A program made the translations under genes and the position numbers. The notes beneath the pieces were generated by a model. That model was given only the letters and a program-made list of their open reading frames with translations. It ran no database searches and was not told the DNA's origin. Shown here piece by piece: positions 782 through 38,101 of a stretch of DNA of 64,000 bases (positions are counted from its first letter, which is position 1; each line of letters starts with the position of its first letter). Source of the stretch: Cubamyces lactineus (lineage: Eukaryota > Basidiomycota > Agaricomycetes > Polyporales > Polyporaceae); the NCBI GenBank assembly GCA_022376465.1, contig JACDTU010000024.1:124001-188000 (forward strand), read 5' to 3'.

Positions 782-1908
782 CTATGGTAGAATCCGCACT
801 TCCAACTCGAGGAAGTAGCACCACGATCCGTCTAGCAACCGACGGCGTCGAACGGCAGTAGCATACAGGTCCGACAAGTGCACCACGATGCACGTATGCC
901 TCTGCGGTAAAACGCCGTCCGTTCCGGTGATATAACGCAAGTTGTTGCGATGGCGCTCCACTTTGCGACACTGGATGATCAGGGTGAAGGAGATCAACAG
1001 CCCTGCTTACGAACAATCTGCAAGATTCGGCGAGGACGACTTACCCAATCATTGCTTTGCATCGTCTGCAACATTGAAATGAGATGGCCTAGCGTGAATT
1101 TACGGTCACGGCGGACGCCGGGTCGGGGGAAGATGCCTGTAGGATCCACTATGGCCATCTCCCGAGCATACTAGTGAGGTAGTCCCCAGTCTCTATCTGA
1201 ACATAGCTTATGTGAGAGCGTAGAAGACTTACAAAGAGTCTTTGAACACAGAAACCATCTTGAACCAAGGCCTCTAGGGACATCGTGGCGTTGTCCACAC
1301 ATTCCGCTATAGTAGTCTCCATTTCACCTATGTGCAGTAGTTCACAGTCGTACAGGGGTGAGTCACTTGTTCTGAGTTTGTAGCCAGCTTTGCCAGAGGA
1401 CGTGATCTTGATCTTGAATGCATGGTCGATATCGGCAGGAAGAGGTATTTTGAAGCGCTGAAACCGGGGGAGAGAATTTGAGGGAGCAACTATGTTCGGC
1501 GCGTGGTTCATGCCCCCGGGTGCCATAGGAAGAGTGATCTGAGGGTTAGGCAAGTCTTGATGGGCGACACCGCCTGTTATGCGGCCCAGGATACTAGGAT
1601 TTCCTGCGATAGCAGGACGCAATTCAGCGTCGCTGAGCCGCATATAACGAGGTCCTTCACGATTCGCGTCGTGTCTCCTGCTGTCACAGTTGACTACCCG
1701 TCGTAGACGATCAGCATCACTAGCAGAGATGACGGGACGGTCAACCGTGCCCGCGAGGTACATCAGATCTTGTGGGGACACTGTAGACTCTAGTAAGAAC
1801 TGCTAGTCGCGACCCAATAGCTAGTGAACACTCACGATTGAGATGTGTGGGTGGCACAGAGGCGTTGGCATGGGTGCCGTAGGGCACATTTTGCGATCCA
1901 TAGTTCAT
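782..1908 (-). CDS. Novel paralog family member A (311 aa, 4 exons)
   Basis: Function unknown; no named domain recognised. Exons: 1908-1836, 1780-1233, 1170-1045 and 970-782, all GT-AG, with phases 1, 0, 0 and an open frame. The short first exon ends in the family's PPTHLN motif. Exon 2 holds the box RFKIPLPADIDHAFKIKI and CVDNATMSLEALVQDG. Exon 3 holds KFTLGHLISMLQTMQSNDW. Exon 4 holds NLRYITGTDG, LYATAVRRRR and WCYFLELEVRILP at the C-terminus. There is no signal peptide or membrane segment, so the protein is probably intracellular. The start is the first ATG after a good TATA promoter. Eight other copies with the same exon plan lie in the window. The structure is secure; the role is unknown. 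Confidence 0.82.
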
Positions 1909-1990
1909 GTTCAGTAGACGCACGGGAGGAAGTAGATCTAGCACGGGAGGTTCTTTCTGTTGGTGCGGATGTCTTGCGACTCGGCGTGTG

Positions 1991-2031
1991 TTATATAGCA
2001 AACCACTTGGACCATGGCCAGGTGAGCTTTG
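1991..2031 (-). promoter_or_regulatory. Family-type promoter module of gene A
   Basis: Read on the minus strand: CAAAGCTC (2031-2024), an 11-nt spacer, GTCCAAGTGG (2012-2003), then TATATAA (1997-1991), about 85 nt before the ATG at 1908. The same arrangement occurs upstream of other members of the family. Regulatory role is inferred from position and conservation. Confidence 0.6.
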
Positions 2032-2937
2032 GTTCACCTAGGTCCAGGTATGTTGAGCTTAGTGTCCGACACTGCGAGAAATCGCGAACGCTCCACTTCA
2101 CGGTCCAATCTCACTATATTTCGATTGACCAAATGGTGAAAGTGCAAGGTCTAATGCCATTAGGAAAACTTCCTTGCGCTCCGGTGAGCGCGCCTTTGAA
2201 CGACCCACAAGGCGTGTACTCAGTAAGAATGGGCGGCCACGCACATAGTAGAAGTCCGTGCTAGAACATATCGTTTGCGTATTGTGAGCCAGCGCGACGC
2301 GCAAGAGTTGGATCCAGGACAAGGAATGCAGTAAGTGGCGTTTTTCCTCATAGTCCAAGTACTGTTGGACGTACCTCAGGATGATTTGCACCCATAGACG
2401 ACACAGAGCTCAATAACATTTGACTTCGTTCGAACCGCTGAACGCTGTGAGAGACCAGGATTGTGTGGTATACGATGGAAGTGTTGAAGTAGAGCTTCAG
2501 GGCACGACGGTTGTAACCATTTACGTGCAACAATAACGGGGCAGTACCTCTCGGCGTATTCACACTATGAATTTGATCACCGCTAGCTACGTTGACTCAC
2601 GCAAGACGGAAAGACAAAATACATACCTCTAATCCACCATTCGGATCCTCGTGTGCATGTCCAACTGAGACCGAGATTACAGGGCGCATATACACATTCC
2701 TCCAGGCTTTACGGTGCCAACGACATGGTCTTCAGGGTTAAAGCAAAGTCGTCACGCCCAGCACGCTGAGCCACCGGCTTGGAGGACGATGTGGTGAACA
2801 TCGATTGTGGTGGCTGACAGAAACTTGTAGGACGTCGCGACGCGCGACGCGCGTGGCGCCTACTGCATCCGCACCTTGACTGACAACCGCCAGGACCTCG
2901 CCAGGGCTTTGTCGCTTCTCTGTTTCTCTGGAAGGTT
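2032..2937. other. Intergenic, no supported gene
   Basis: Open frames here (for example 2098-2391 and 2348-2563 on the minus strand) show no motif and no splice logic. A CG-rich repeat of GACGCG units lies at about 2832-2852, about 90 nt before the ArfGAP start. It is probably part of the ArfGAP promoter. Confidence 0.45.
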
Positions 2938-4870
2938 ATGTCGCAAACAGTCAATAAGATCACCGCTGAACGCAACCAACGCACGCTCCTTGAGCTCGCG
3001 AGCCAGCCAGGAAACGGCAAGCACATTTAGTGAAACTCGGCCAACATCCCGAGTGCTCACTCAGCTCGAATTGCAGACGTATGCGCCGATTGTAAGACAA
3101 GGAACCCGCGTTGGGCATCCTACAACCTCGGGATTTTCATCTGGTAAGCTTAGTCGCAACACCCTCGCATAACCAGTGTCGAACGCAATATGAAGCGTCA
3201 GCTGCGCGAGTATTCATCGCAAGATGGGCACGCATATCTCCAAGGTGTAGGTGCGGTCGGGCGCTGGACGGGTTGCAGCTGGGTGACCTCTGTCTGCCCT
3301 CAGGAAGAGCCTGACCTTGGACTCGTGGACGAAGGAGCAAGTGGAGGTGAGTGCAATTCAATGCATGTTGCTACACCTAGGCGACCCTTGCATCGTCCGT
3401 TCTCGGTCGAGGCCTCTATGCACCGCCTTGGTAAGAAGTAACATAGAGGAAAGATGCTGAGACTGCGCTCAGTTCATGAAGTCCATGGGGAATCTCAAGT
3501 CCAACGCGCATTACAACCCGGATGAGATCAGGAATCCTCCACCGACGAACATGATCGAGTCTGAACGGGATAGTGAACTCGAGAAGTACATCCGATGTAG
3601 GTCAACCCTCTGCCGCCATGAGAGCATAATGATGAGACTGTTCGTAGCGAAATACGAGTACAAGTCGTTCAGGCCGCGCGCAGCCAAGGTCGCCGAGCTG
3701 CTAGGGCCATCGCGTTCAGCCGCCAGCAGACCAACTGCCCCCGCTGAACCTCCGCGCTCGAAGACGGTGCCGGTTCCAACACAATCAACAACGATGTCTT
3801 CTACCGCCGCTGCTCCTGCATCTGCCATAGCCCAGTCGAATTCCGCAGCGAGCAATATCTCTCAGACGCAGTCCCAATTCCGCTCCGTTTCGCAACCCGT
3901 CGCACCCTCGCAAACGCAACTTTCAAGTCAGACTCTGCAGCAGCAACCACAGCAACAAGCGCAGTTGCAACAACCACCGCTGCAGTCTGCAAACCCGCTT
4001 TGGAACGACCTCGCACAACTCCAGGCGCCAGCCACCAACTCCTCTCTCCCGCTTCAGTACGCTTCGCTCCCCGCTACCCAGCCAATGAGCATCCCCACTA
4101 TGTCGACCGGGCTCAGCGCTCCGAATGCGTACAGCGGGCTCTCCATAAGCCCCAATTCACCCTTCCCTTCCTCGCTACAGCAGCACTCTCCCGGCGGCAT
4201 GTTCTCCGGAGGCCAGCCCCGCAGTATGAGCCTCAACTCCGGCCTGAGTATCGGCGCAGGCGGGATGGGCTACGGTACGGGGACAAGCCCTGGGATGATG
4301 GGCGGCGCGTCCCCTATGCTCCATCCACAACCGACGCTCGGCGGCGGGTTGTCCGCACCCATGTCGATGCTCCCTCAAAACACCACTCCGAGCCCGAGCC
4401 CCTTCACTCCACAGCCTCTTCCTCAAACGGGGTACGGTATGCAGCAGCAGCCTCTGCAGACAGGGGCGAGCGCGTTCGCGCCTTCCTCGTTTGGCCAGCA
4501 GCAAAACCAATCATTCCTCCAATCTCAGCCGCAGGGATCGCCGATGTTCAACCCCTCGCAACAGCTCCCGTACGGCTCTGGCAACTCGCCGATGTTTCAG
4601 TCGCAGCCGCTCGGTGGTGGTCAGGGGCAGATGCCCATATTGCAGCAGCAGATGCAGGGGATGTCGATGGGAAGCTCGTACCTGCAGCCTCAACAACCTC
4701 AACAGCAGTATGGGTCGTCTCAGCCGTCGTTCATGGGTGCGCCATCCCCGGCACCGTATGGTCAGCCTCAAGGGACGTTCCAGCAGCAGGCACAGCAGCA
4801 GATGTTTGGGCAAGGGAGCGCGTTCGGAGGGACAGGATGGCAGCCGCAGCAACAATGGGGCGGTATGTGA
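2938..4870 (+). CDS. ArfGAP-domain protein, Age2/SMAP/Gts1 type (528 aa)
   Basis: GTPase-activating protein for Arf GTPases, expected at Golgi/endosome membranes. Exons: 2938-3016, 3077-3143, 3196-3246, 3304-3346, 3473-3596 and 3648-4870. The N-terminus carries the ArfGAP zinc finger CADC...CVSC with the catalytic arginine region RWASYNLGIFIC, then SIHRKMGTHISKVKSLTLDSW, FMKSMGNLKSNAHYNPDE and PPPTNMIESERDSELEKYIR. The rest (about residue 135 on) is low-complexity Q/P/S/M-rich sequence ending GWQPQQQWGGM, typical of fungal ArfGAPs of this class. Intron 1 has a GC donor (3017-3018) because no GT precedes the next stop. The 51-nt intron at 3597-3647 keeps the frame, so an unspliced copy would also be readable. 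The subfamily is uncertain. Confidence 0.9.
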
Positions 4871-5026
4871 GAGGGGCGGGGATCGGAATCGTACTCGGAA
4901 GTGTTTCAGCCATAGCTATGAGTAAAGTGTCGGACTGCTGTCAGGATGCTATCCTTTGTATACGTATACAAGTTCCACAAGTCCGTCCATCCATTCTGCC
5001 ACGCGCGAGAGAAGTCGCGGACAACG

Positions 5027-6156: not shown

Positions 6157-6487
6157 GGGTGATGGGGGTTTGGGGTCAACCTCGCAGAACGGCTCCGTGA
6201 GCTTCAGCTCGGGCTTGCCCCGAGGCTTCGAAGGAATTCCCGGGAAGAGCGGGGGAATCGGCGTAGATTAGCGCCCATAACATACTGTACCGCGATGCAG
6301 TATATAGCCGCTTATGAAAGGAGAATGAGTACGAGAATCAGGGTCCGTACCATGGAATACTAGAGTACAAACAAGAAGCACTGCGGGGAAAACCTGAAGG
6401 AAGATACAAGCTTTATCAATCGCTATCCAGCTCTATCTGAACAGGGGAGAAGAACGTCAATACACAAACGATCGAAGGACTAGTAGA
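6157..6487. other. Intergenic between F-box start and MRE11 stop
   Basis: About 330 bp carrying the F-box promoter and the MRE11 3' end, both read on the minus strand. TATA-like tracts (GCAGTATATAGCCG near 6300) are visible. No gene is seen. Confidence 0.5.
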
Positions 6488-12112: not shown

Positions 12113-13368
12113 TCACAGCTTCGCGGAGATCGTCTCTGCCGCGCCACCATCGTTTTCCCTCTCCTTCTCCAGCTTCTCGCGGGCGCGCCGTGCCTCGAGC
12201 GCACGTCCGACCCGGCTCGCATTCGGACGGTCAAGCGTCTGCGAGATCCATGTGCCTACCTCCGCTATAGCCTCCAGGTCGCCTGGAGCCTCATATTGAC
12301 TCCCGCGAAGAGCATACAGGACGTCCTCAGTCGCGACGTTGCCTGTCGCGCCTGGGGAGTATGGACAGCCCCCGAGGCCGCCGACGGCGGAGTCGAACGT
12401 GCGCACGCCGTGCTCGAGTGCTGTGAAGATGTTCGCTACGGCCATTCCGTAGGTGTCGTGGAAGTGACCCTGTAGCGATCAAAGAGATGAGAGGATGAGT
12501 CAGTAGCGCGCGCTGCGGTTACTCACAGCAAGCTTGGACGCGGGGATCCCACCGCTGCCCCCGATGACGGTATGCAATAGCGTCCCGACCGTAGTCGGGT
12601 TTCCGGTACCTACGGTGTCTCCAAGGCTGACCTCGTAACAGCCCATGTCGAGGAGGGCTTGTGACACATCCTTCACCTTCACAGGATCGACCTTCCCCGA
12701 GTACGGGCAGTCAATCACGACGCTAACGTATCTAGATGCATCATGGTATCAGTTCATATGGATATTTTGGTATCGAAACAGGGATACGTACCCTCGTACA
12801 CGGAGGCCCTCGGCCGTAGCGCGCTTGGCGACTGCTGAAAGGCGTTCGAGGGATTCGGCGACCGTGCAGTTGGTGTTCGCTTTGGAGAAGGCGTCTGTCG
12901 CGGCTGTGAAGACGGCGATCTCGTCGGTGTATGGGACCTCGGACTTGGGCTGGTTCGATAGCAGGTCAAGCAGTAGCTCGAGACCTTTCATGTTCGGGAC
13001 AAGGACAGGATAGTGCATCCCTTTATGCCGCTCCATGAGCTTGAGAACCTCGGCAGTTCCTGCCATCTAGCATAGTACATTAGTAACCCTTCTTTACCGT
13101 AGAACGAATGAAGACTCGCCTGAGGAACCCACTTCGGGCTCACGAAGCTCCCCGACTCGATGATGTCCATGCCCGCCTTCGTCAGGCGGTTGACGAGTTC
13201 CGCCTTTACTGCTGGAGGTATGACCGCAGACTCGTTCTGAAGGCCGTCCCTTGGCCCTACTTCGACCAGCCGGACGCGTTCCCTAGTAGCTGTGGCGTAT
13301 GTCCGGGGACGGGCGGAGAGGAGGCCCCGGCGGTAAAGCAGAGAACGTGTAGCGTTGCGAGCGAGCAT
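12113..13368 (-). CDS. Hydroxymethylglutaryl-CoA lyase (361 aa)
   Basis: Cleaves HMG-CoA to acetoacetate and acetyl-CoA in leucine breakdown. Exons: 13368-13120, 13066-12792, 12731-12527 and 12469-12113. The N-terminus is an Arg-rich presequence (MLARNATRSLLYRRG). Then come VEVGPRDGLQNE, IESGSFVSPKWVPQ, VSLGDTVGTGNP, GHFHDTYGMA and the signature GLGGCPYSPGATGNVATED, which includes the catalytic cysteine loop. The C-terminus ends in AKL, a possible PTS1 peroxisomal signal. Intron 1 uses a GC donor (CAG|GCGAGT at 13119) so that the conserved WVPQM junction is kept. The ATG at 13368 was preferred over an in-frame TTG upstream. Confidence 0.94.
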
Positions 13369-13587
13369 GGTGGTGAGAGTCAAGTTACAAGATTAACACA
13401 GGGATGTGCATCTGCATTTAAACGTTGGTCCGGACGCGGACGAGTTTGTCGAGCGTCGGGGGAGGTCATGGGAACAGCGAGCAGGATGGGGCGGCGGAGA
13501 GCCGGGACTCGGGAGCGGGGGGCGCGCGTCGTCTCCGGTGACCCGGCCGTGCGCGCGTCTTGCCTTCAGCCACCACCACCGTCACCA

Positions 13588-13885
13588 ATGGCCACCACGT
13601 CGTCCTCAGAGCCTCGTCCTGGATCCGACGCTCAGGTCGAGCTCCCGCAAAATTACAAGGATTGTCTTGCGTGCCGCGTCGTAGGCTCTGTCGCGCTTGG
13701 AGGAGTGGGCATCTACGCTCTGAACCAGTCGCGCGCCCATGCGCCTGGTTCGGTCGTAGGGAAGAGGATCATGGCGGGACTGGGCGTATGTACGTCGCTT
13801 CTACTGCATTAGCTTAGATATGACACATTGTTTGACCTGGCTCATAGGCTTCCTCGTGGCCAGTGCGCTTCGATGGACCAAGTAG
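13588..13885 (+). CDS. Small DUF4536 (DMAC1/TMEM261-like) membrane protein (79 aa)
   Basis: Two exons, 13588-13789 and 13848-13885 (phase 1). The protein has YKDCLACRVVGSVALGGVGIYAL, then GKRIMAGLGVCFLVASALRWTK. This is the DCLxCR signature and two short hydrophobic segments that mark the DUF4536 group. The human member DMAC1 assists assembly of respiratory complex I, so a mitochondrial location is likely. Transcription is divergent from HMG-CoA lyase across 219 bp. Family assignment rests on motif memory and is good but not certain. Confidence 0.72.
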
Positions 13886-14478: not shown

Positions 14479-15294
14479 ATGCCTCCACGAATAACACGCG
14501 TACATCCTTCAGCCGATGTCTACGGGGTTAAGACCAATTCCGCAACCGGCAACTCTGCGGGTGCGTTCTGTCCGCACTGGTAATCAATTGGTAGCTGAAG
14601 ATAGGGTGCAGGCAATGGACGTAGGGACGATGACATCAATTCTGCCCTGACCGCCCTGAAGCCGCCTGGCGGCCAACGCCTTCGGGTCCCTCTTCCATCC
14701 GATACCGATCCGAACTTCAGGATCGGCCTTACAATGGGAGGCTTGTCTTTCTCCGTGCCAACGAGCCTCTCGCAATTCAGCAACGGGCGACTGTTGGCAG
14801 GTTTTTTGGGGATGATAGATAACGCTTCGATGTCCCTGGATCGGTACCTTCCTGGGCCGACTGTTTGGGTCGACAGAGCCTACGTAAGTTGCCCGCGCTC
14901 TATATTGTATAGTTGCTAGTGCTGACGGCCCTGTACCAGTTCCCTCTGAGCACTGAGAGCAAGATGATGGCTCTTCCGGAGGTCAAGGAGCCCGCGAGCG
15001 GTTACACGCTAGCCCATCTGCTGGTGCTGTTGCTGAACATGCAGAGTGAGCACTGGGTGAGTGATCTGTACTCTTGTGACGAATACCCAGACGTGCCTTC
15101 GGTAATAAACATCAAATAACTTCTAGGGCACCTGTCACGACAGCCCCGAGCTGAAGCGTTTCTTCAAACCGGACGCCCCTTGGTCGCATGAGGCCGGCCG
15201 GTTGTTTTTGCTCGCGGTTGCGGTTCGGCGTCGCCCCCATGACCGCTCGGCGTGGTGCTACTTCCTCGAGGTAGACATATTAGTGCGATGCTAG
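14479..15294 (+). CDS. Novel paralog family member C (212 aa, 4 exons)
   Basis: Exons: 14479-14560, 14612-14883, 14940-15056 and 15127-15294, phases 1, 0, 0. It has the family boxes: QRLRVPLPSDTDPNFRIGL, MIDNASMSLDRYLPGPTVW with DRAY before the intron, GYTLAHLLVLLLNMQSEHW, and the C-terminal AVAVRRR...WCYFLEVDI. It lacks most of the variable linker of the larger copies and the C-terminus is diverged (VRC instead of RIP). Function unknown. Splice sites fall exactly where they do in the other copies, which supports a real gene. Confidence 0.78.
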
Positions 15295-16018
15295 TCAACG
15301 CAGAACCTACAGCGGATTCTGCGCAATGCGCTGACCTCCTCAACGGACAGAGCTGAGTCGGACATTTTTCTTTGTAATTAGCCCCGCCCAATGGACGCAC
15401 GACGCAGATGATGCGATGATATCTTGTTCTTCTCATCGTCGTGTTATAGCTGTATTTACCGAACCTGTGTGCCTGCCCTAAGGTGACTATATTGGCTGGT
15501 GGCTGTGCTGTATCGCACTCGATGATGATGCAAGCGTCATAAACCTAACACAAGCTCAACCCAAGTGCCCAACAGATCGCCATGTCTTGTGCAGAGAATT
15601 CGGGCTCGACACTTCGCTTCTTCTGCTATAGCTGCATCCAGAGCAAAGTGATTCCTCAGCTCGCGTCACGGATTTCCCGCATGCTTGCACGTAATCACTC
15701 GTGCAACACCCGAAGACAACATTCTTCACTAACCCAATTCTCTACTATGATCATAGCATGTCCCTAGTATTGAGGCTTCGAGCTTCAAATGGTTACGCAC
15801 CTTGTGAGTCCCGCGTCGCGTCTACAACAATGCGAGAAATTAACTGGAACGTCTGAGTAGAAACCGCTCGACCCGTGAGAGCCTGCAGCATGATGGGCTC
15901 TTGCGCCCTTTTCATTCGTTCGACCTCCTGCGGTAAGCTTGGACTGTAAGATGGACCATTCAACGTCGCACAATGCCCTTGACTTACGAAGCGGACACAT
16001 TCACGTACCAAGCTGAGT
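15295..16018. other. Intergenic, no supported gene
   Basis: Open frames on both strands (for example 15582-15767 plus and 15785-16011 minus) show no motif. The stretch ends in the promoter of the next family copy. Confidence 0.4.
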
Positions 16019-16059
16019 CAAAGCTCAACCGGCCGTGGTCCAAGCGGCTCCCAATATAA
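16019..16059 (+). promoter_or_regulatory. Family-type promoter module of copy D
   Basis: CAAAGCTC at 16019-16026, an 11-nt spacer, GTCCAAGCGG at 16038-16047, TATAA at 16055-16059, then the ATG at 16159. Order and spacing are the same as upstream of copies A and E. Confidence 0.62.
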
Positions 16060-16158
16060 CACGCATGGGGTCGCTGGACGTCCGCACCAACAAAGAGCCT
16101 CACTGTTGATTCGCCACATCCTATTCCCCCATTCGTCGTGGAAAATTGCGCGCAACAA

Positions 16159-17176
16159 ATGGACCGCAACACTCGTGCAAATTCCTCCGCGCCATCCACG
16201 CGTCCCAATCGTGAGCACACTGGCTTCACGATTGAGAGAGACAGCTTTTCTTACGGCGGTTCACAGCTTCCCCTGAGGGTTCAATGCGCCTTGCGAGGAC
16301 TTGTGGCCACGCCGGCGTGCCTGCTAGTGGTGTTGGCCGTATGCGGCACGAGGTCGACAGTCAGAACCCGGCCAACGATACGAATTCCCAAGGGCCCGAG
16401 CATGGTAACTTGCGGATCAACGACGTCGTACTGCGCCTTCCTGTGGCAGAGACCCCTAGCAACATTGGCTACACGCCGGGCGTTGACACTGCAGCCCCAG
16501 GATCTCTTGTTCAGGCCCAGCAAATCCAAATCCCTCTCCCAGTCGACACGGACCCAGATTTCAAGATTGACATCATCGCGCCTGGTAGAGTCGGCTACAA
16601 CCTCCGTGCCACTCCCGGGAACAAGGATCACGTCCGCGTAGCGCCTAGTGTAGAGCAATACGTGAATAATGCGACAATGCCGTTGGAGCACATTCTTCAA
16701 GACAATGGACTATACGTTCAGAGGGTCCACGTAAGCTCGCTGCACGGCTGTGATAACACGCGATTAATAACATACTGATGACTATCGCGCGTAAGTACGC
16801 CTTGGAGAAGAATCAAGTCGTTCCTAAACTCAAGTCCCTTGACCCTCAGCGCCAATATGCTTTCACGCTGGGCCACCTCATCACGATGTTGCAGGTTATG
16901 CAGAGTGGTAATTGGGTGAGTCGACTCGACATCCATAGCAACGTGTATCAACTGGACGTGGTTTATGACATCGTTGATTACACTTATCTAGTACCACACG
17001 ATGAAGGGCCATCCCGACAAGTTGACCTTACGTTATGTCACGGGAACGGACAGCACCCTGCCGCGCAGCGTCCCGCGGTCCAATGGTCGGACTTGTGGGC
17101 TACCGCGATACGGCGGCGCATGTTGCCAAAAGTCGGACGGTGGTGTTATTTCTTCCAGTTGGAAGTTCGGATGTAA
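16159..17176 (+). pseudogene. Novel paralog family member D, frameshifted in last exon
   Basis: Exons 16159-16210, 16267-16730, 16796-16915 and 16992-17176 follow the family plan. Boxes present: IQIPLPVDTDPDFKIDII, YVNNATMPLEHIL, FTLGHLITMLQVMQSGNW. In exon 4, LTLRYVTGTDSTLP lies in one frame and the tail WSDLWATAIRRRM...WCYFFQLEVRM in another. The shift lies between about 17060 and 17085. Read straight through, the conserved tail is lost and the frame runs to 17255. An AG at 17004-17005 could act as an alternative acceptor giving access to the tail frame, so a working variant is not excluded. The promoter is intact. It is called a pseudogene with caution. Confidence 0.65.
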
Positions 17177-17825: not shown

Positions 17826-17868
17826 CAAAGCTCGAGTAGCCGCAGTCCAAGCGATGCGCCATATATTA
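17826..17868 (+). promoter_or_regulatory. Family-type promoter module of copy E
   Basis: CAAAGCTC at 17826-17833, an 11-nt spacer, GTCCAAGCGA at 17845-17854, TATATTA at 17862-17868; ATG at 17937. Confidence 0.6.
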
Positions 17869-17936: not shown

Positions 17937-19391
17937 ATGAACTCTCAATCGCAAGACGCGGACGCTAACACTCGTCCCAAGGTCCCTTTGCCACCCATCC
18001 GGATCGCTCGTGAGTTCACCAGCTGTACAGTCGCGACTCGGGGTGATCATCTCACCACGTCCTGCAGTGTCTACCCCTGCGCATCTGCTATACCCTGGGG
18101 GTACTGCTGGCCGCTCTAGTACGCCTACGGGTGATGCCGATCATGATCATACCGGTGCCAAGATCTCTCTACCACCCATGCGGCTCTACCGTGAGTTCAT
18201 TGACTATACGGCGGCAGCAGGCGGGTCTCACAATGATTCGTAGCATCTCGCCCTGAGGATATGATATTTCCAGGGCGTACCGTCGACCGCCCACAGGCTG
18301 GCATGTCTACCAGCCGTACTCATCATTCACGGCGCGAAGGCGACCGCTACCAAGGGACGCGCGAAGTTCCCAGTGAAGGACATCGCTACGTGCGGCGCAG
18401 CGACAACGAATTGCGCCCTATCATTACTACGAATCATGACAACGCGGGCCGCATGGCGCATGGGGTCGCTGGTCCGAACGTGTCTGCGCACAGCAATACG
18501 ATAGGGCACAGAGGACCACCACTATATGTGCAGCCCGATGCTCGCAGTCTCGCCTTGGCCTCTACGCCCACAGCCGAGAACGTCGGGCGCATGGCAAGCA
18601 TGTCCAACAGTGCTCACACAGTCCCCAATCGCCTGCAAGGACAGAGCGACGGACCACGTCTTCAAGAAAATCCCCAGGCTCCCCGCAGTTGGGCCAACCC
18701 GACATCCGCAGCTCCGGGATCTCTTCGTCGGGGACAACGCTTTCAAATTCCCCTTCCAGCCGATACCGACCCGGGTTTCAAGATCGACATCATCGTCTTT
18801 GGCGAAACTGGCTACCACCTCAGTTGGACTGAGTGCGTACTGACCGAACTGCATGTGGCGCCTAGTGTAGTACGGCTTGTGGAAAATGCTACGATGAGCT
18901 TGGACGACATAATTGAGCATGGTTGCTTGCAAGTTCAAGGGGTCTTTGTAAGTTCACCGTGTTTATGTATCCTCAATCGGAAACATATTGACGGCTGCTG
19001 CACTAGTACGCTTCCGAGAACATCAGAGTATTCATGCCTAAACCCAAGTTTATGGACCCTGAACGCAAGTGTTCGTTCACACTAGGGCACCTTATCTCGT
19101 TGTTGCAGGCGATGCAGTCCAATCACTGGGTGAGTTGACCTCGACGTCCCTCGCATAATAGATGCCAGCATAATCATTGACATTCTCTACCCAATCATCT
19201 AGGAGTCACCTAGTATGAAAGGGAACAAGAATTTGCGATATCTTATCGGAAAGGATGGCGGCCTGCCCCAGGATGGTCCTGTGCTGCAGCTTGCGGATCT
19301 GTGGGCTACTGCGGTCCGTCGCCGCATGGTGGATCGCGACGCCATCCCAAAGTGGAGCTATTTCCTGCAATTGGAAGTACAGATACCATGA
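17937..19391 (+). CDS. Novel paralog family member E (403 aa, 5 exons, duplicated exon 1-intron 1 unit)
   Basis: Exons: 17937-18009, 18068-18190, 18244-18947, 19007-19129 and 19203-19391, phases 1, 1, 0, 0, open throughout. The extra second exon looks like a copy of the exon 1 end plus exon 3 start: PLPPIRIAR and SLPPMRLYR both stand before a GTGAGTTCA donor, and LLYPGGTAGR resembles MIFPGRTVDR. The core boxes are RFQIPLPADTDPGFKIDIIV, LVENATMSLDDII, FTLGHLISLLQAMQSNHW, NLRYLIGKDGGLPQ, LADLWATAVRRRM and SYFLQLEVQIP. Function unknown. It is one of the two longest copies because of a polar, Ser/Arg-rich linker in exon 3. Confidence 0.8.
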
Positions 19392-20198: not shown

Positions 20199-21669
20199 AT
20201 GAACCACTCGCAACACGTGGATCGTAGGCCTCGCGCCTGGCTCTCCGAGCCACCTATGAATATTAGTAGTGAGTTCATTGATTATACCCCTGGAAGCTCC
20301 CCTTACACGATTTGCAGCGAGCAACACAGCCCGCGCAGCGAGTACGGCTCTTCGACTCGACGTATTTGCGGCGGGTATCAGCAACCACAGGGGTGACGCT
20401 GGAAATGGTCCAGCGAGGCGAACTTATCAAGGAATCGGGTCTCAGTCCTACGCACGGCACCGGGCCCCGGAACTGTCTCTCAGATCCGCATCCGGATATA
20501 TGGGGGGCCTGACTGGCGCGTTCAGCAGTGCAAACATATCGGCTGAACGTTTTCAGGAAGAACTTCGTCGTGAAGCAATGTTGAAAGCGAACGGCGGGCT
20601 AAATCCCCACTACGTCCGACCGCCATCACGAACACCCGATTCACTCGTCAACAGCCCGCATACACCTACGCACAAGAGCTTGGAGGGCGACACAAGCACT
20701 CCGATCGCCGCTCAAATGCCCGTCAATCACTGTTTCGAAACAGACAACGATGACACAACAATACGACGGGGGAACAGCAGTCTGCATCTCGCTACGCAAT
20801 CTTTGGCGTTCAATCGACCCCTCAGTGAGCCTGCGACCATGTGTAGAATCAACCCCACGACGGGTATGGCCGGCCATTCTGAGATCCAGGATGCTGAGGT
20901 CAGCCGCAGTTCGCACAGAGGCCAAACTGGCAACGAGGAAACAGTGCAAACGGCTAGCCCGAACGAACAATGTATCTTCGCGGTTCTTCCGAACGTCGAG
21001 GTGCCCTTACTGTCTCCCTTTCGCATCCAGCGTTTCCAGATACCTCTTCCAGTAGATACCGACAAGGAATTCAAGATCGACATCATGGTGTCTGACGGAA
21101 TCGGCTACCACCTCAGTTCTGGTCTCTGCAACAAGACCGGCCTATACGTGACACGTGGAGTAGCACAAGTTGTGGCCAATGCCACCATGTCCCTGAAAGG
21201 CATAATAGAGAATAATCGTTTATACATTCAAAGAGTCCTCGTAAGCATACAATGTTCTCAAATACTCGATCGAATGCACATTGACGGCTATCGCGCTAGT
21301 TCGCTTCGGAGCGGGTTAGAATAAGGCCAAGCTGCTACAAGTTGATAAACCCTCACAAGTTTACGCTAGGGCACCTGATCTCGCTGCTGCAGTCGATGCA
21401 ATCTCATCAATGGGTTAGTTGACCTTGACGTCTCTAGAAGGGTAATGCTGACATAGTCATTGGCATCCTCTAACATAATCATCCAGTACAGTCGCGTGAA
21501 GGCGGGAGAAAGGAATCTACGATACCTACTCGGAGGCGACGATGATTTGCCGCAGGGCACCGTACTGCAGTTTTCGGATCTGTGCGCTACTGCAATTCGG
21601 CGCCGCCTGGTGAAGCCCAACGGCCCCATGTGGTGCTACTTCCTGCAGTTGGAAGTACGGATACCATGA
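20199..21669 (+). CDS. Novel paralog family member F (429 aa, 4 exons)
   Basis: Exons: 20199-20268, 20318-21240, 21300-21413 and 21487-21669, phases 1, 0, 0. It is the largest copy: exon 2 carries an extra polar region of about 200 residues (RFQEELRREAMLKANGGL and following) before the core. Core boxes: RFQIPLPVDTDKEFKIDIMV, VVANATMSLKGII, FTLGHLISLLQSMQSHQW, NLRYLLGGDDDLPQ, FSDLCATAIRRRL and WCYFLQLEVRIP. Introns lie at family positions. Function unknown, and the added region shows no recognisable domain. Confidence 0.82.
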
Positions 21670-24156: not shown

Positions 24157-24995
24157 ATGTCGACGAAACCATATCCCTGGGACGATGCTTATATCGTCGA
24201 ATACTATCACGAAGTACCCGCCGATCTCCCGAACGACAAAACAGTCCTGTACACCATCCCTCAGGATCCTCCGGTGCCTGAGGCAACGTATTGGAACGCA
24301 CCATCATCTCTAATCGCGGCATCGTATCCGCACACGTTAGCGTTTCCGACACAAGCCCGCTTCCCAGTACCGTTGCCGAAAGACGTCGACCCGGTGTTCC
24401 GCCAGGAGGTGCTGGTAGGCGGCGAGATTGGACTGCAGCTATCCACTTGCTGTGCTTTGGAAGAGGGCTATAGCGGGTTGACCGTGCTACGGCGCATAGC
24501 GACCACGGTCGACAATGCTTCCAGTCCTATGGACCACCTGTGTTATGGAAAGTACGTCTGGGTCGAGCGCGCATGGGTGAGCGTTCATATGCGGGTTTCG
24601 GGCGCAAGTGTTCGGGTGCTGATTGTCGATGTTTAGTTTCCAGGCGAGAACGCGCACAAAGCGCGTCGACCGTCTCCTAAGCACCGAGTACCTGGCTTGC
24701 CGCGCTCACAGTTGCTGAGCTACTTGGTCGAACAGCAATACAGACACTGGTCAGACACAATCGTGAGTCCTATTGAGTTGTACGGATCCACATAATAGGC
24801 TGCGAACTCACCTAGTATCTACAGTCATTCAAAGGCGAAGTACTACTTGACCAATTGATTGGCCAGAGACATTACAAGGTGAATTACCGAGTGAATTGGG
24901 ACTCGCTGTATCTTGTCGCCATCCGAAGGCGTCGCTCGAAGGCGCCAGATGGGAGCACACTCTGGTTCCCCGAGCTCGAGATACGCATCCCATAG
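24157..24995 (+). CDS. Novel paralog family member G (238 aa, 3 exons)
   Basis: Exons: 24157-24576, 24637-24762 and 24825-24995, all phase 0. The usual short first exon is missing or fused, so the start lies in what is exon 2 in other copies. Boxes: RFPVPLPKDVDPVFRQEVLV, TVDNASSPMDHL, VWVERAW before intron 1, LLSYLVEQQYRHWSDTI, LYLVAIRRRR and the C-terminus LWFPELEIRIP. With J it forms a diverged subgroup having WFP-LE in place of WCYF-LE. Function unknown. Confidence 0.77.
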
Positions 24996-25166: not shown

Positions 25167-27053
25167 TCAGAGACCGCCGTACTTCTTGAGGAACTTCAGG
25201 TGGAAGTTCTCCAGCGCGCTCACGTATTCCTCCACACCGGGGCAGAGACACGTCAGCCGGTAATGGTGCTCGCCGTCCTTCTGGCCGAATCCTGAGCCAG
25301 GTACAACGCAGATACCGGTCTCCTCCAGCAACTGCAGCGCATATAGCGTGTCGGGGCTCTTGCCGAGCTTCTGCGCCTCCTCGACGGCCTTGTCAGGGAG
25401 CTCGAGCTTGGGGTAGAGGTAGAGCGCGCCAGGGGAGTCAACGCAAGAGACACCGGGCAATGAGTTCAGGCGCTGCGCCATGAGCTGCGTCCGGTGCCGA
25501 AGCGCTTCATGGATGGTGTCTGTCTCCTTCTTCCAGAGAGGGTAAGATGGCTCGTTAGGACGCGGTGGACGGACGAGACAGTCGACGCCGATTTGGCCTG
25601 AGAGCGGTGGGCAGAGCGTGACGCTCGCCATCTTGTACAGTAGCGCGCGGACCTCGTCGGAGATGTTCGTGCATTCGAAGTAGCCGCCACGACGGCCACA
25701 TTCGCCCTTGACGCCCTTGGAGATCGAGTGGAAGGAGAAGAGCGGGATGGGCGAGTTCAGCTCGCGCACGACCTGCTTGAACGAGTGGAACGGGTGGGTA
25801 TCGGGACGGTGCAGGTTCGCCTGGTAGACCTCGTCCGCGAGGAGGACGAGAGAGTGCTCCTCGCAGAGTCGTACGAGGTTGACCATCGTGCTCTTATCCA
25901 AGATCGCGCCGGTAGGGTTGCCGGGGTTAATCACGACGATAGCACGGGGCATGACACCATCCTGTTTCGCCTTCGCGAGCGCTGCCTGGATCTCATCCAG
26001 GGACGTTGACCAGCCTTCGGGCTCGGAGAGATGGTACGGAAGCGCGACACCGGAAAATTGCGCGAGCGTTGCAGTGTAGAGAGGGTATTGTGGGATGGGG
26101 ATGAGGATGCCAGTCACGTTCGGCGTGATGAGCACGTTGAGGATGAGCGAGACACCAGCGGATGCTCCAGCAGTCAGGAAGATGTCCTCTGGGTCGCTCG
26201 GATAACCGTCGCGCTCTGTTGTTGAAGGGAGTCAGTTTCACGAAAGTGCCAGATTGAGATAGCCCGAGCCAGGCACTCCAGCATATCTGTCGCGGCGATG
26301 ATTCGTAGTGCGAACTCTTCCGCGCGACATTTCAGCAACCAAACGGTGACACTGACGGCACAGGCGTCAGAGGCCCTCCGGAGCGTCCCCACATCGTTAT
26401 GGTGCGATCGCATCCACATGCCATTCCTGCGTAGCGGCCTGCGCACGCCACTCTCGGATCCTAGTGGTCCGAGAGATGGCCTTCCCTTGCTCTCGGTCTA
26501 CCGAGGCAATCAAATGCGATGGCACACACCTTCGATGAATTTCGCGACATGCTTGCGGATAAGAGGCACGCCCTTGCTGTGCGAATACGCGCCAATCGAT
26601 CCGATTTCTTCCTGGAGTTCCTTCGCGCGGTCAAGGACGTCCTGTGGCCACTTGTCCTTCACGATCTCCGCGAGAGGGGGGTATTCCATGAGCGCCGCGA
26701 CCTATGAGAGGTGTCAGAGTGCAGCCTCGCGAGATCTGGAGTCGATGCAGACATACCTGACGAGTGAATGTCAAGAAGGGCTGGTCAAGCCCCTTTTGCT
26801 GGGGGTTGCCGATGTTGGACGAGATGACCTTTTTGAAGGGCAGACCATGGCTCTCGCTCTGGAGCTTCTCGCGGAGCTCCTCAGCCTTGATCGCGAGCTC
26901 GCCGCGGACGGCGTACTGGACCTTGAGAATTGCGGGGTTGAGGTCGGCCGCGGTGAGGGGACGCATGTTGTGGGAGTAACGGAAAGAGGATGGAGGCGTC
27001 CGGGTCAGGCGGATGAGCTGGTTTTGTAGGGGTCGAGACGCAAGGCTGATCAT
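25167..27053 (-). CDS. Alanine aminotransferase (505 aa)
   Basis: PLP enzyme swapping amino groups between alanine and 2-oxoglutarate. Exons: 27053-26757, 26701-26530 and 26215-25167, phases 0 and 1. Features: a basic N-terminus (possible mitochondrial presequence, RLTRTPPSSFRYSHNMR), SNIGNPQQKG, DIFLTAGASAGVSLIL, VVINPGNPTGAIL, LLADEVYQ, and the PLP lysine loop SFHSISKGVKGECGRRGGYFE, which is characteristic of alanine transaminases. Then comes VPGSGFGQKDGEHHYRLTCL. Length and motifs fit the family closely. An internal ATG at residue 30 (MRPLT) could give a cytosolic form. Confidence 0.95.
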
Positions 27054-27990: not shown

Positions 27991-28030
27991 CAAAGCTCCA
28001 GTGATGTCCAAGCGGCTCACTTATAATATA
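27991..28030 (+). promoter_or_regulatory. Family-type promoter module of copy H
   Basis: CAAAGCTC at 27991-27998, a 7-nt spacer, GTCCAAGCGG at 28006-28015, TATAATATA at 28022-28030; ATG at 28108. Same order as the other copies but with a shorter spacer. Confidence 0.58.
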
Positions 28031-28107: not shown

Positions 28108-29051
28108 ATGAGTCCATCAAAGAAAGCTACTACCATCCAGCCCAAACCCTATGCACCACCCACCCGCTCGAAGCGTAAGTCGTTGCCACGACATCGAAGA
28201 AAGTTCACTCACTGATCTTCACTTGTAGCAACTCCGAGGGATGTCATGTACATCGCAGGCACCGGAAAACAGCCTGACATGTCCATTGAGGATGCTGAAC
28301 GCTTGAAGGAGGAACTCGACGAAAGGGCACGGTGGCAAAGTCTCGCCGAACGGCCGTTCTGCGTGCACATCAAGGACCTCGAGATATCCCCCAACCCCTC
28401 TTCGGAACATATGCTCCAGTACTTCCCAGTGCCCCTCCCACATGACACCGACCCCCGTTTCAAGATCGACATCGTTGCCAATGGCATGATCGGGTTCCGA
28501 CTCGCCAGCGACGATGTGCGCAATGATTCCTTGCCTGTACTCCCTTACGTGTCGCGCACTGTAGACAACGCTACGATGTGTCTGGACGACGAGATTCGAG
28601 GGAGCATCATTTGGACGCAGAGAGTCTATGTAAGACTACTGTTCTGCATTATGCGTACCGGTTGTGAATGCAAGCGGCTGATTGTTCCAAATCCAGTTTG
28701 CCCAGGAAAAGACGAAGATGACGCCCACGGACAGGCGTATTCGGCCAGGCTATACGCTAGGCCATCTGATCACGTTGCTACTGCATAAGCAATATAGACA
28801 TTGGTTCGGGCAAATGGTGAGTCAGGCTGTTCGACAACCTTGAAGTTGGCATCATTGTCGGGCTTATTGGCGCTGACATTAAGACGAAGATGAAAGGTGG
28901 ATGCAACTTGCAATTCCTCGTCGGAGCGAAGGTGGTCCCAGAACCGGGACGCAACCCAGTGAGTTGGTCTTCACTGTACGCTGTTGCCATTCGCCGCCGT
29001 CCCTTTGGTTCTGGCTGGTGTTATTTCTTCCAGCTGGAAGTACGGGTGTAG
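28108..29051 (+). CDS. Novel paralog family member H (251 aa, 4 exons)
   Basis: Exons: 28108-28174, 28229-28629, 28697-28816 and 28884-29051, phases 1, 0, 0. Boxes: FPVPLPHDTDPRFKIDIV, TVDNATMCLDDEIRG with IIWTQRVY before the intron, GYTLGHLITLLLHKQYRHWFGQM, LYAVAIRRR and WCYFFQLEVRV at the end. Exon 2 also has an acidic alpha-helical stretch (MSIEDAERLKEELDERARW) shared with copy I, so H and I are closest relatives. Function unknown. Confidence 0.8.
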
Positions 29052-29669
29052 CCAAAGCTACCAACTGTCTGCCAGCCGAACGGACGATGTTGATATCGGT
29101 ATACCACTGTTAATGATAATATGTCTTTCCTTCACGTTCCGATGCGTATGTGTCGACCAAATTCTCGCCCGAGCGTTGTTTCACGATAGCCCACATGCTG
29201 GCCTCCATCTCATGGAGACAATACGGTTAGCTCAAGAGTCCCGGTCGTATGACGAGGGTCACGAATGTTGGCAAGAATACTGTAGCACTGACAGGGACTC
29301 AGAATAGCAAGGCTGGCGGATGCAGTACGCCCTCTTAAAGCTACACCGCCTGAGTACGAGGTCTGGTATGACTGCTCGTGCATCGCCGTAATTCGCCGGA
29401 GCACAGGCGCGGATGACGGGCTTCCGCAGCTCGAACTTCAGTTCTGAAGGCTGCGACACATGCAGCAGGAGCATACCGTGATGTACGCACCGAATGTCCG
29501 TACGTGATTTCGGCACGAGGAGCCTGAGTATGCGCATGCAACGTGAAGCAAGCAGAGCTCTCGAAGAGATCCTGCGGGTGAATTTGCCTCTCGGAAGAAA
29601 GGAAGGACTGTCAAAGAGCTCTCAACGTAGGTTCGCAATTGTAAACCAAAGCATCACAAAGCACAGCCA
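29052..29669. other. Intergenic, no supported gene
   Basis: Convergent 3' flanks of copy H (plus) and RRP9 (minus). Open frames at 29210-29541 show no motif. Confidence 0.4.
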
Positions 29670-32846: not shown

Positions 32847-34754
32847 ATGGTCAGTAGACATCGCCGAAGTCGCTGTATCGCATGCCGCTGATATACGTAT
32901 GATTTCAGGTTTTTGTGGGGGACAAGAAATATGCGTGGTACGATTCATTCGTTGTCCACAGCGTGTAGTTCTGATTAGTGAGTAGCGAGACGTGCATCAA
33001 AGGTCACCGCTCCTCGTCCTGCAAGCATACCGACCGCCCTCTCTTCGAGATCAAGAAGAAAGGACGTCCAGTAACGCAATGCGAGCATTGTCGTGAGCTC
33101 CGAAAAACACGACAGATCCATGTGAAGTGTGTATGTGAGAGTAAGGACGGCAATCACGAGGTCTCTGGTCCTGGACCGTCCGGGCAAGGTGTGTTAATCC
33201 ATTGACTCTATCGTTTCAGTCTCGTCTGACCGTTAAGGCCTGCTTGCTTGTTTGCTGGTTAGGAACGTTCAAGGTCCCGGCTCGCGCCGCGTTTCCTAGC
33301 GGTCTGCCTGTCGAGCTGCTAGAAGCGTCGGCTGCGTCCCGCCCATTGTCAGAAGGTTCTGACTCAGATTATGCTGGTAGGAGTACCTATCGTATGCGGT
33401 CGTATTCTCATCCTCACTAACAGTCTTTCTAGGTCGGAGCTGTGCGTGCAAGGATGACGCTTCGTGCAATTGCTGGACACCTCGACACCGGCCGAGACGT
33501 AACACAGGCCATTCCGTCGAATCAAGACCCGTGTCCACAACATCGAGCAATACCGTCCCCCAACCTGCAGCGCTTGTGATCAGCGCGCATAGTGGCAACA
33601 ACCGACCTGTCCTCCCGAAGCCACCTGTCGAACGCTCAACGTCCCCCTCTCGGAACACACCCGCCCCCGCTCTCGTTCCGTCCAGTACTCGTGCGCCGAT
33701 GCATGGACAGTCCCTCTACAGTCCCTACGGTCGTGCATATGAATTTACCCATGGCGCGGAGCCTCAACATCAGCAACCTGCTCATTCACCTACGCACACG
33801 TCTATAGGTCTCAACCATTCTCGTGCGGACAACAACCTCCCTGGTCCTGCCCATGATGAAATTCTATACGGAGACTGGCCCCCGCCTAATTCTACTCCGC
33901 TGTGCAACTGTGGCTCGGCCTGTGCCTGCGCCGGATGTCTTGAGCATAACGGGCCGAACGTGGACCTCAACGCGTCATGCGCCAACCCCAATTCCTGCAC
34001 GGCATGCTTAGAATGCAATCTCAACGCCCTAACTTCTCTTGCATCGGAAATCGTCCAACCGGTGTACGACAATCCGTCGGGTCAAAACGTCGGTGAATGG
34101 CTTCGCCAGATGTCGACTATGCCTGACTTCCCCACTTCCTCCGTGGACCCTCCCCGGCCCCTTACGCAACCCGACTCCCGCTTCATCTCACCCACTAGTC
34201 AATCGTATGCACCTTGGAGCGACTCTCGCAATGCTAACCCCTATTTCGCTGCCTTCTCCGTGGGGTCGGAGTGTTGTGGTGGACGCTGCAAATGCCCCGC
34301 GGGTATGTGTGGATGCCCGCCAGATTGCTGTGGATGCTGTCAAGGCTGCAATTGTGTCGGCTGCAACCACGATACCGGCTCAGAACGTACCCTCACCTTT
34401 GCTACTTCCGGAGAGCGTGCTCCGTGCTGCGGCGGACGTGAACACCTTTCTGATCGCTCCTCACAACTCTTATCAGTGCCGAGGGAGACGTCTAGTCAAG
34501 GGACCTCGCTGTCGTCGAATTCGTCCCCTATCCCCTCGCCGTCATCGTCTTCGCCTATGCCCTATTCAAACACTGCCGAGGCTTTGCGCGACGCCACTGG
34601 AGCGCACTCGTGTTGCGGCTCCATGGGCAACCTATCGATGCACGCCCAAGTCGCCGGATCGTCGCACCAGCCCGAATCCAATGCCATTAATTCCAGGATT
34701 GCCGATCATAACGCGTACAATATGCAACCCGCTCGTTCTCGCCGCTTCTCTTGA
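32847..34754 (+). CDS. Copper-fist transcription factor (Cuf1/Mac1/Ace1 type) (556 aa)
   Basis: Copper-sensing DNA-binding regulator, nuclear. Exons: 32847-32849 (ATG only), 32909-32937, 32986-33188, 33263-33376 and 33433-34754. The joined N-terminus reads MVFVGDKKYACETCIKGHRS, then SCKHTDRPLFEIKKKGRP and CEHCRELRK. This is the copper-fist zinc module with the R/K-GRP minor-groove motif. Cys clusters follow: CACKDDASCNCW (residue about 118), CNCGSACACAGC, and CCGGRCKCPAGMCGCPPDCC followed by GCCQGCNCVGC. These are likely Cu(I)-sensing. The remainder is Pro/Ser-rich and probably regulatory. Whether it activates uptake or detoxification genes cannot be told. The ATG-only first exon is required because GT follows the start codon directly. 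Confidence 0.92.
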
Positions 34755-34975
34755 AAAGAGGTCGCGCTCATCCCTGTACCATAACGACCTTCTCTGACCG
34801 TACGTCATTTAGATGAGCGGCTTCGCTTCTGCAATTTGGCTTTGTTTGAATTGTCCTTCGTTGCCATGCTATCATTTGTAACACGGTCAAATGTGAATGG
34901 AGGCTGAACTTCCGAATACATAGACATCTTTGCGCATCGTACATCCGCCGGCTATATCTTCGATCTTCAATCTCA

Positions 34976-35717
34976 CTAGAAGCGGACCTCAAGTTGCGGG
35001 AACCAACGGAGCCTCCCGTCCGCGCCGGTGCTTCGACGGATCGCAACGACGTACAGGTTCTCGTAACCGACCTCTGCGTCGGGTGGGGCGACTTCTCCGG
35101 GACCCACGACGTCCCTCAGCTTGACTTTCGTTCCCTGAAAGACGGCAATGTGGATATTCTGACAATGCGCGTGTGTGCCTTATTCACTTACTATTCGGCC
35201 GTAGCTCTTGATCCACCCATCATACTGCTTGCGTATGATGTGGGTGAGCATGTGAGCCACCGTGAAGCCGGGTTCCGGTGGGTACTTGGTCGACACATAG
35301 ATCTCGGTCCCTCGTTGGCTGGGAAACTGCAGCGCATCCCCGGCCGCAAGCGTCATAGTAAGTCATCGAAGCTGTTGCGGGCAGGTCTACTAGATCACTC
35401 ACGTATCCCCTGTGGACACAGAGCCGCTTCCCGCCGACGAGGTCGTCAATGCACTTCGCGGCGTCCTCGACCTTGCGTGTGATCGTCTCGCTGGGCATCT
35501 GCTTAAACAGCGACTCGCACAGGATAATCTGCAGGCCTGACTCTCCGGACACTATAATAGGGATAGTGAACGCAGAGTCTACATCACGGGGAAGCGGAAC
35601 GGGGACACTTAGACCTGTCAATGAGATTCCTTTTGTTGCTTTATGGCGACGATCCGTTCGTACTTTCGACGGGCTAGATGTGGATACTGCGCCGTGGCCT
35701 ATGGGATACATACACAC
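34976..35717 (-). CDS. Novel paralog family member J (202 aa, 3 exons)
   Basis: Exons: 35717-35403, 35326-35192 and 35134-34976, all phase 0. Boxes: VPVPLPRDVDSAFTIPIIV, KVEDAAKCIDDLVGG, CVHRGY before intron 1, FTVAHMLTHIIRKQYDGW, LYVVAIRRSTG and the C-terminus LRWFPQLEVRF. Like copy G it starts without the small first exon and has WFP-LE, so it belongs to the diverged subgroup. It is tail-to-tail with the copper-fist gene (222 bp). Upstream, CCAAGCTCAC and ATCCAAGCGC echo the family promoter boxes. Function unknown. Confidence 0.76.
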
Positions 35718-36180
35718 ATAGTACCGTTGTCAATACACGTCGATTATCATGTACTAAGTTGACCGCCCCTACCCGTAGCCACGGTTCGACCTGGTTCTAC
35801 GAGCGAAGAGGGGGTGCGGGGATTCAAAACAGGAGCGGGATACGGGTTAGACATATCTGCGCTTGGATCAAAGTGAGCTTGGAGGGAGAGATTGTTCGGC
35901 CAGGGCCATGCTCCAACCGGGCCATATATACGTTCGGGGTGCGCTTTAGTTCGCTGTTTATGTGCAGCTTTGACTGCCTATTGTCGACCGAAACGGGACG
36001 CCAATGCCGGCCGCGAAGGGACAGTGCTGGCGGGACTCTTTGACTGCCGATGGCGATTTAGCCACAGAGCGCCAGCTTGCGGCTGCTGCGCTTTGTTCGA
36101 GACAAAGCAGCGGCTGCACGCTTTGAGGAGTATCTCGGGACGTTCTTCCCCTTCCTTCGATGTGTGAAGCGGTGCTGGGG
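35718..36180. other. Upstream region of copy J, LINE boundary
   Basis: Holds the presumed promoter of copy J (TATATACG near 35930, read on minus as CGTATATATGG) and the unclear 5' edge of the LINE remnant. No gene supported. Confidence 0.35.
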
Positions 36181-37080
36181 TAAGAACAATATGGCAGGGC
36201 AGAGATAGACGGCAGCATGCCATCGAAGAACTTCGCCGGGCTGACAGCGAAGCTCCGGCGTCGTCACGCTGCCCTCCTCATCCAGTTCCGTACTAACCAC
36301 GTTCCGCTTCAGGCCTACCTCATGCGCATTGGGAAAGCTGACTCCGCAGCATGCCCGACCTGTGGAGCTGCGGCGGAAACGGTCGCACACTTTCTCCTCG
36401 CGTGCCCTCCATCGTGCAGTGCACTACCGCCCGCTCGGGTTTTCCGGCCGCAATCTGAAGACATTGCTGAACAGCAAGGAAGCCATCCGCCCCCTCTTTG
36501 ACTACGTCCATGCTACTGGCCGCCTCCGCTCAAGCTTTGGGTCCCTCGACCTCCCGGATGAAGAGGATGGTGACGCAAGCAACTCTGGCAGCGACGATGA
36601 AGACGGCTAAGACCTCGCACGCAACACATCCTTCCGTTCAACCCCGAGCTCCCCTACGCTTACTTCTCACTCCTACATTTAGTTCCTCTTCTCTACGTAC
36701 CCGGCGCACTGTCCACATAACCTCCGCGTTGGGGCCGAGGGAGTTCCGACGCCGCGACGGTGTCAGCCGCGCGCGCGTACCCCTCCCGTGGCAAGAGGCT
36801 TATGCCCGGAAGCGCAACCGCTATCCAAAAGGGCGGTGAGGTTTAGAACTCGGTTCCCTGCCACCTAGTGGCCGGCGCGGTGTGGGCGGTGCAGCCCTTT
36901 CCTTTTCCTTACACTTCTTGGTCTCATTTATACCTACTCTACCTCTCTACTCTAGTCACGACTGGCGCTCGCGCCCCCCCCCACCCCCCCTACGTATGAC
37001 AGCTGACCGCCTGGTCGGTCTACCAGTACTTACACGCGCTACATCGCCTACCATAGGGCACGGCCCTGCAGGGCAATAAA
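36181..37080 (+). mobile_element. Truncated, frameshifted LINE (Tad-like) 3' end
   Basis: From about 36196 the frame reads IDGSMPSKNFAGLTAKLRRR, LIQFRTNHVPLQAYLMRIGK and CPTCGAAAETVAHFLLACP. This is the cysteine/histidine region after the reverse transcriptase and RNase H of basidiomycete LINEs. A stop lies in frame just upstream (36181) and a frameshift at about 36410-36450 moves the rest (GRNLKTLLNSKEAIRPLFDYVHATGR) into another frame, ending at 36610. The rest is noncoding with a C-run near 36975 and AATAAA at 37074. It is clearly dead. It sits between family copies J and I. The 5' limit is approximate. Confidence 0.75.
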
Positions 37081-37158
37081 CGAGGATTCAAAGAAAGAAC
37101 AATATGGCAGCATAATATTCAAGATCGAGAGTCTACAGTACAATTATGAGGCATGGGG

Positions 37159-38101
37159 CTACACACGTATTTCCAGCTGGAAGAAGTAACACCACATCCC
37201 GGTATATAGCCTCCGGCGCCGGATTGCAGTGGCATACATCGACGACCGAGTGACCGTACAGTTCTCCTGCGGCGAGATGTCATCTGCTCCGACGAAGTAC
37301 TGCAAGGTACGGTCACAGCGGTTGAGGGTGGCCTACGCGATAGCGGTCGAGTGAGCTATGGTCGTGCCCATGAGAGATTCGTCGTATTTTCGAGGTCGAC
37401 TCACCCAATGCCTGCGCTGCTTGACCAGCAAGAGCTCGATCAAATGGGCGAGCGTGAATCCCTGCGGGGGTGACTTGGGCGTCGGCATGGGTGTCATCTT
37501 TACTGTCGTCTCCGGAGCGAACTAGTGCAATAACGCCCACGGTCATTACCAGCTCCGGGACTGCGCTCGTGTAACGGACTCACGTAGACTCTCTGTGCCC
37601 AGATGACCGGCCCTGGAATTTCTTCGTCCAGGCACAGCGTCGCATCATCCACAAAGGCCGTAATTTGAACCAAGTTCGACTGGGTCCCCTGGAACTCCAG
37701 TTTCACGCCGGGTTGCCCAGAGGTGGTAAGATCGATCTTGAAAAGACCGTCAGTGTCTGGAGGAAGAGGAACCTGGTAATGGCGAGGCGGTGGAGGCACC
37801 CTGAAGGCCATCGGGCGCCAAACGATCTGCTGGTACAGTGCATCGAAGGCTTGCTGGTCGGAGGCCTCCCATTTCGCTACCTCGTCCATTTCTCTTTGGA
37901 GCAGTTCAGCTTCCTCAGCAGTCATGTCACATAGCTCTAACGCGCCCGCCGTATGCGACATAGCAACGGGAGTCGCTGTGCAGAATAGGGAGTAAGCCTT
38001 GGACAGTCGCAACATATAGTGACGGAATTATGACTGGTACCAGAGGGCGCTGCCCATTCCATGGCATAAGCGTCGTTGTTCTGGTATTCCTGTTGATTCA
38101 T
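37159..38101 (-). CDS. Novel paralog family member I (236 aa, 4 exons)
   Basis: Exons: 38101-38041, 37975-37584, 37521-37405 and 37299-37159, phases 1, 0, 0. Boxes: YQVPLPPDTDGLFKIDLTT, FVDDATLCLDEEIPG with VIWAQRVY before the intron, FTLAHLIELLLVKQRRHW, MYATAIRRRR and WCYFFQLEIRV. The acidic helix MTAEEAELLQREMDEVAKW matches that of copy H. Exon 4 is shorter than in other members. Function unknown. Confidence 0.8.

Follow-up and report, generated by a model that had tools for sequence, protein, structure and literature searches.

Fungi commonly have gene families specific to one lineage, and most of them offer no handle. The closest described proteins to the family reported here are all annotated as 'hypothetical proteins' (examples are C8Q70DRAFT_540747, GY45DRAFT_1324312 and PYCCODRAFT_1479078), and each of the 26 named relatives comes from Trametes, Cubamyces, Lenzites or Pilatotrama. 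We analysed a stretch of 64,000 nucleotides (the window) from the wood-decay polypore Cubamyces lactineus (Polyporaceae), positions 124001-188000 of contig C17 (396,935 bases) in an assembly of 36.3 Mb and 43 contigs. It holds nine loci, named g1 to g9 in coordinate order, of a cluster that comprises about ten related genes; public protein models are designated P0001 and so on. Four handles are available in this case: a confidently predicted core domain without a clear structural match, a supported second branch of the family (branch B, with A denoting everything that is not B), a recurring A-B gene order and a nearly private promoter module.

An earlier note on this DNA had described the nine loci as spliced relatives. 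All nine were rebuilt from the DNA, and eight of them are open from ATG to stop. When the family consensus was searched against the whole genome, all 27 matches with an expectation value (E) ≤ 1 fell on C17, as did 18 of 18 matches with g7 as query and 18 of 18 with the relative P0012. With g8, 13 of 15 matches were on C17, and the other two, on C34 (E 0.07) and C5 (E 0.25), do not rise above chance. A further intact-looking copy was located on the minus strand of C17 at ~15,420-16,491, 108 kb away; the consensus search of the genome revealed no copy outside the window and this distant locus.

The core comprises about 165 residues at the C-terminus and is joined to a variable N-terminal part. 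It contains, in this order, the motifs P-L-P-x(3)-D, T-x-x-H-L-x(7)-Q-x(3)-W and A-[IV]-R-R, which are present in 7 of the 8 open window copies; the exception is g6, which has P-L-P, D, Q, W and A-I-R-R but lacks the T and H. Across the 27 rows of a core alignment, T, H, L, Q, W, A, R and R are each conserved in at least 26. The four boxes of the earlier note reappeared in the same order in the rebuilt genes, being weakest in g6 (24157) and g8 (34976), and its statement that they match no named domain held up, as sequence searches against Pfam, NCBIfam, PHROGs and PDB gave nothing significant. For Pfam, this applied to 7 window proteins as well as to the proteins in two alignments, one of 21 and one of 26 sequences.

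The core was confidently predicted to fold as an alpha+beta domain, to which no PDB entry corresponds clearly. Ten-residue blocks of the predicted core had predicted local distance difference test (pLDDT) values of 69-96 in P0001 and 74-98 in P0011, mostly above 84 in both, and the N-terminal parts were mostly at 49-61, except for a helix at residues 43-61 of P0001 near 80. In the structure comparison with PDB, ribosome or ribosome-complex entries made up all seven rows for P0001 and 20 of the 22 rows for P0011; we take the chains concerned to be ribosomal protein uL22. In a rough test for solubility, the highest 19-residue hydropathy over 38 proteins was 1.59, and the highest 10-residue value within the first 35 residues was 1.96.

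In a tree of 28 core sequences, branch B formed a clade of eight rows including g8 (support 100/99), and g6 was placed as its sister (96/93). Comparison of a profile of the A rows with one of the B rows gave 99.9% at E 5.7e-37, and genome-wide g7 recovered each of the eight remaining loci, as well as the distant copy, with best E values per copy of 2.3e-19 to 3.2e-4; thus, the likeness among the copies goes beyond chance. Across Cubamyces species, g1 paired in the tree with P0013 (Cubamyces sp. BRFM 1775, 100/99), g7 with P0001 and g8 with P0011, so part of the amplification predates the other Cubamyces species.

For all three B-side loci in the window, the nearest same-strand family member upstream is an A gene, with gaps of 2488 bases between g5 and g6, 57 bases between g7 and a decayed B-type copy, and 1305 bases between g9 and g8. 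The same order, with the A domain ahead of the B domain, is seen within single fused public models from T. polyzona (P0003) and Pilatotrama (P0006). In T. sanguinea (P0014 and P0019) and in T. cingulata (P0024 and P0023), the A and B proteins list equally long contigs, which we took as the same contig. The copies that were amplified locally in Cubamyces are of type A, and the simplest history would be an ancestral A-B pair with this amplification following later.

Three protein searches yielded 23, 9 and 13 proteins, 29 in combination, including three without a name (P0020, P0028 and P0029), and no precomputed Pfam domain was recorded on any of the 29. Within the database searched, the family has so far been found only in the Trametes group of the Polyporaceae; relatives beyond reach are possible because the protein search needs shared five-residue words. 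Five of the six proteins of Cubamyces sp. BRFM 1775 list equally long contigs (195173), and two of the three T. sanguinea entries list contigs of 27508, the third, P0015, listing another, assembly-size contig. Since species with several hits mostly list equally long contigs, one cluster per genome is suggested.

The putative promoter module consists of two 8-base words, which were the best among all upstream 8-mers. Each word occurs exactly in 5 of 10 upstream regions, vs 14 and 11 of 1276 background windows that overlap and include the 10 upstream regions. The combined two-box pattern has six matches in the 36.3 Mb, and five of these lie 77-140 bases ahead of an A gene, namely g1 (2004-2031, minus strand, with a TATA just downstream), g3 (16019-16046, plus), g4 (17826-17853, plus), g7 (27991-28014, plus, with a spacer of 8 instead of 12) and g9 (38151-38178, minus). 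The reversed pattern, used as control, had no match in the genome. A TATA stretch follows the boxes within about 6 to 11 bases. Downstream of the boxes the flanks of g1, g3 and g4 are alike (33-36 of 50 positions), and for the seven pairs that include g7 or g9, 12-21 of 40 positions agree upstream of the boxes and 13-20 of 49-50 positions downstream. Because the flanks have decayed around the boxes, the module looks like a conserved, putative binding site rather than a leftover of duplication.

Altogether, we tentatively infer an unnamed, lineage-restricted family of soluble intracellular proteins that work as co-regulated A/B partners. The proteins would be soluble and retained inside the cell, with A and B partners joined in one complex. 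Core residues T176, H179, Q188, W192, R233 and R234 (g7 numbering) may form a surface for binding or catalysis, and variable contacts would be provided by the disordered tail. One transcription factor reading the two-box promoter could turn the module-bearing A genes on together, and the amplification in Cubamyces would then provide alternative A subunits for one or two B subunits.

Several observations weigh against such a partnership. The contact between A and B is something that we infer from gene order alone; the order in three of three cases is not improbable by chance, since most window copies are of type A and on the plus strand, and tandem duplication also places relatives next to each other. 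The gene g6 sits 2.5 kb from g5, the fusions P0003 and P0006 may be annotation artefacts, and a strict 1:1 partnership is ruled out because Cubamyces has far more A copies than B copies. The midpoint-rooted drawing places P0012 and P0014, which are A-like by motif, next to B (82/81), so A is not necessarily a single clade. As to the promoter, the boxes of the five modules agree by construction, because the pattern was built from them; independent evidence is only the near absence of the module elsewhere and the decay of its flanks. The exact module was not found at the A genes g2, g5 and g10 or at the B-side genes, and g3, one of the five carriers, is a broken copy. Quite improbable in our judgement is a farther-reaching version, in which a new-fold domain was born in the Trametes-group ancestor and became an A/B two-component system that a private two-box promoter turns on as a set, amplified in Cubamyces, for example as a recognition or defence complex with interchangeable subunits.

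New genes often arise through fast divergence after duplication, and the core might be an offshoot of a domain already known in mushrooms, such as DUF6699 or another unnamed Agaricomycete domain, that has diverged so far as to lose every recognisable sequence signal and would share the function of its parent family. On visual inspection, the elements of the DUF6699 copies in this genome follow a like order (a W-x-I-x-V strand, a T-V-x-D-V-L helix and a final W strand). The family has no Pfam match to DUF6699 at E ≤ 10, and hhalign gave probabilities of 0.2-0.4% against 10 of the 11 DUF6699 matches found in the genome, the positive controls reaching 99.9% (A vs B) and 99.8% (two DUF6699 halves); we consider an origin from a known domain somewhat unlikely. 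Foldseek with the P0001 model retrieved small uncharacterised proteins of giant viruses, from Pithovirus LCPAC401 (A0A481ZAI3, E 9.8e-4, probability 0.99), Marseillevirus LCMAC101 (0.98) and Moumouvirus (0.91). A core derived from giant viruses, or common to them, is nevertheless very improbable, as the three matches reached template modelling scores (TM-scores) of only 0.27-0.30 over the query at a root mean square deviation (rmsd) of 7-10, none of them was among the 41 matches of the branch B model P0011 (best E 0.33, a phage protein), and the family genes carry three or four shared introns.

The earlier note had suggested a fast-evolving role, for example in self/non-self or environmental response, and the copies could form an arsenal for recognition or defence, directed at self/non-self, parasites or viruses, whose diversity would come from expansion and variable tails. 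The features that inspired the note's idea are real: the family is locally expanded, the linkers vary and one copy is broken. Also in favour of an arsenal are the loss of copies (g3 and the decayed B-type copy) and the restriction to one fungal group. Conservation was lower in the N-terminal part than in the core in 6 of 7 ortholog-like comparisons, in which g3 was counted twice and g3 and g5 were covered over part of the core only; the exception was g4/P0026, with 52% in the N-terminal part vs 49% in the core. The core itself, in contrast, is under purifying selection, because its ratio of nonsynonymous to synonymous substitutions (dN/dS) is below 1: between paralogs it was 0.26-0.52 (nine pairs listed of 28, dS being near saturation), for example with 0.36 against 0.78 for g4/g5 and 0.43 against 1.63 for g7/g9. 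Matching copies have also been kept across species, with 84% core identity in the two closest pairs, g7/P0001 and g8/P0011. Moreover, no significant Pfam match to HET, NACHT, NB-ARC or a similar allorecognition domain was found in the 7 window proteins and the aligned family members searched, and linkage to mating-type genes was not found either, all 15 STE3 matches being on C14 and the sole Homeobox_KN match on C3, vs C17 for the family. We consider an arsenal of this kind rather unlikely.

The gene models are as follows. A-type g1 (782-1908, minus strand) has four exons (1836-1908, 1233-1780, 1045-1170 and 782-970) and encodes 311 residues; g2 (14479-15294, plus), likewise A-type with four exons, encodes 212 residues and is identical to the public model P0005. 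The A-type copy g3 (16159-17176, plus, four exons) changes frame in its last exon and has intact relatives in P0007 and P0010. For A-type g4 (17937-19391, plus) five exons and 403 residues were obtained; the extra intron goes with a short 5' exon that is apparently duplicated, a duplication absent from the relative P0026. A-type g5 (20199-21669, plus) has four exons and 429 residues, all of which form the end of the public C. lactineus model P0002, and g6, the sister to branch B (24157-24995, plus), has three exons and 238 residues. A-type g7 (28108-29051, plus, four exons, 251 residues) is followed, 57 bases past its stop, by the decayed B-type copy (29108-29444, plus), which retains parts of exons 3 and 4 with several in-frame stops. 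B-type g8 (34976-35854, minus) has four exons and 223 residues, contains the public C. lactineus model P0017, and has a first donor picked among four in-frame options; A-type g9 (37159-38101, minus) has four exons and 247 residues.

With these models, intron positions and phases proved to be common to the loci as previously proposed, with phases 1, 0 and 0 in eight of nine and g6 lacking the first intron. The single broken copy of the earlier note is g3, to which the decayed copy at 29108-29444 has to be added. Two details were corrected: the open copies measure 212-429 residues instead of 202-429, and g8 starts not at 35717 but at an ATG at 35854, with an open frame. The public C. lactineus models are in agreement with the rebuilt genes; among them, P0027 tracks g4 over 341 of its 343 residues and P0004 tracks g7 over 196 of its 204 residues before each enters the last intron, so either these models are wrong at the 3' end or the last intron is sometimes retained. 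Splicing of this intron is favoured because the reading frame past it is conserved in many relatives.

Other features are interspersed with the family. A protein with a DMAC1/Dmo2-like domain lies just ahead of g2 (13108-13812, plus) and a class I/II aminotransferase between g6 and g7 (25167-26135, minus). Between g8 and g9, the 3' remnant of a retroelement without long terminal repeats (non-LTR) was detected at 36184-36500 (zf-RVT, E 2.7e-5, 25.2 of 27.5 bits, just under the curated cut-off); the dispersed repeat spans about 36180-36990 and has seven more partial DNA matches on five other contigs. Farther downstream are a tRNA-Leu (AAG; 46011-46104, minus), whose length of 94 bases could reflect an intron or else a long variable arm, a CDC20/Fizzy-type WD40 protein (47175-48524, plus) and polyketide synthase-like gene pieces (51774-56405, minus) with KR, acyltransferase and ketosynthase-associated domains in adjacent open frames.

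The cluster is a good system for studying how a new domain family arises, acquires its own regulation and expands in one fungal group. Compared with known systems, the core has a possible likeness to the ribosomal protein uL22 in fold only. DUF6699 (Pfam PF20415, a domain of unknown function) has 11 matches in the genome and is clustered there, as is the present family; seven of its matches lie within about 200 kb of one contig (G000:C10:245605-442676), forming another local cluster. The hypothetical proteins of Trametes, Cubamyces, Lenzites and Pilatotrama share the same core and boxes with the window family and are likewise without a functional name, and they differ in copy number and tail length.

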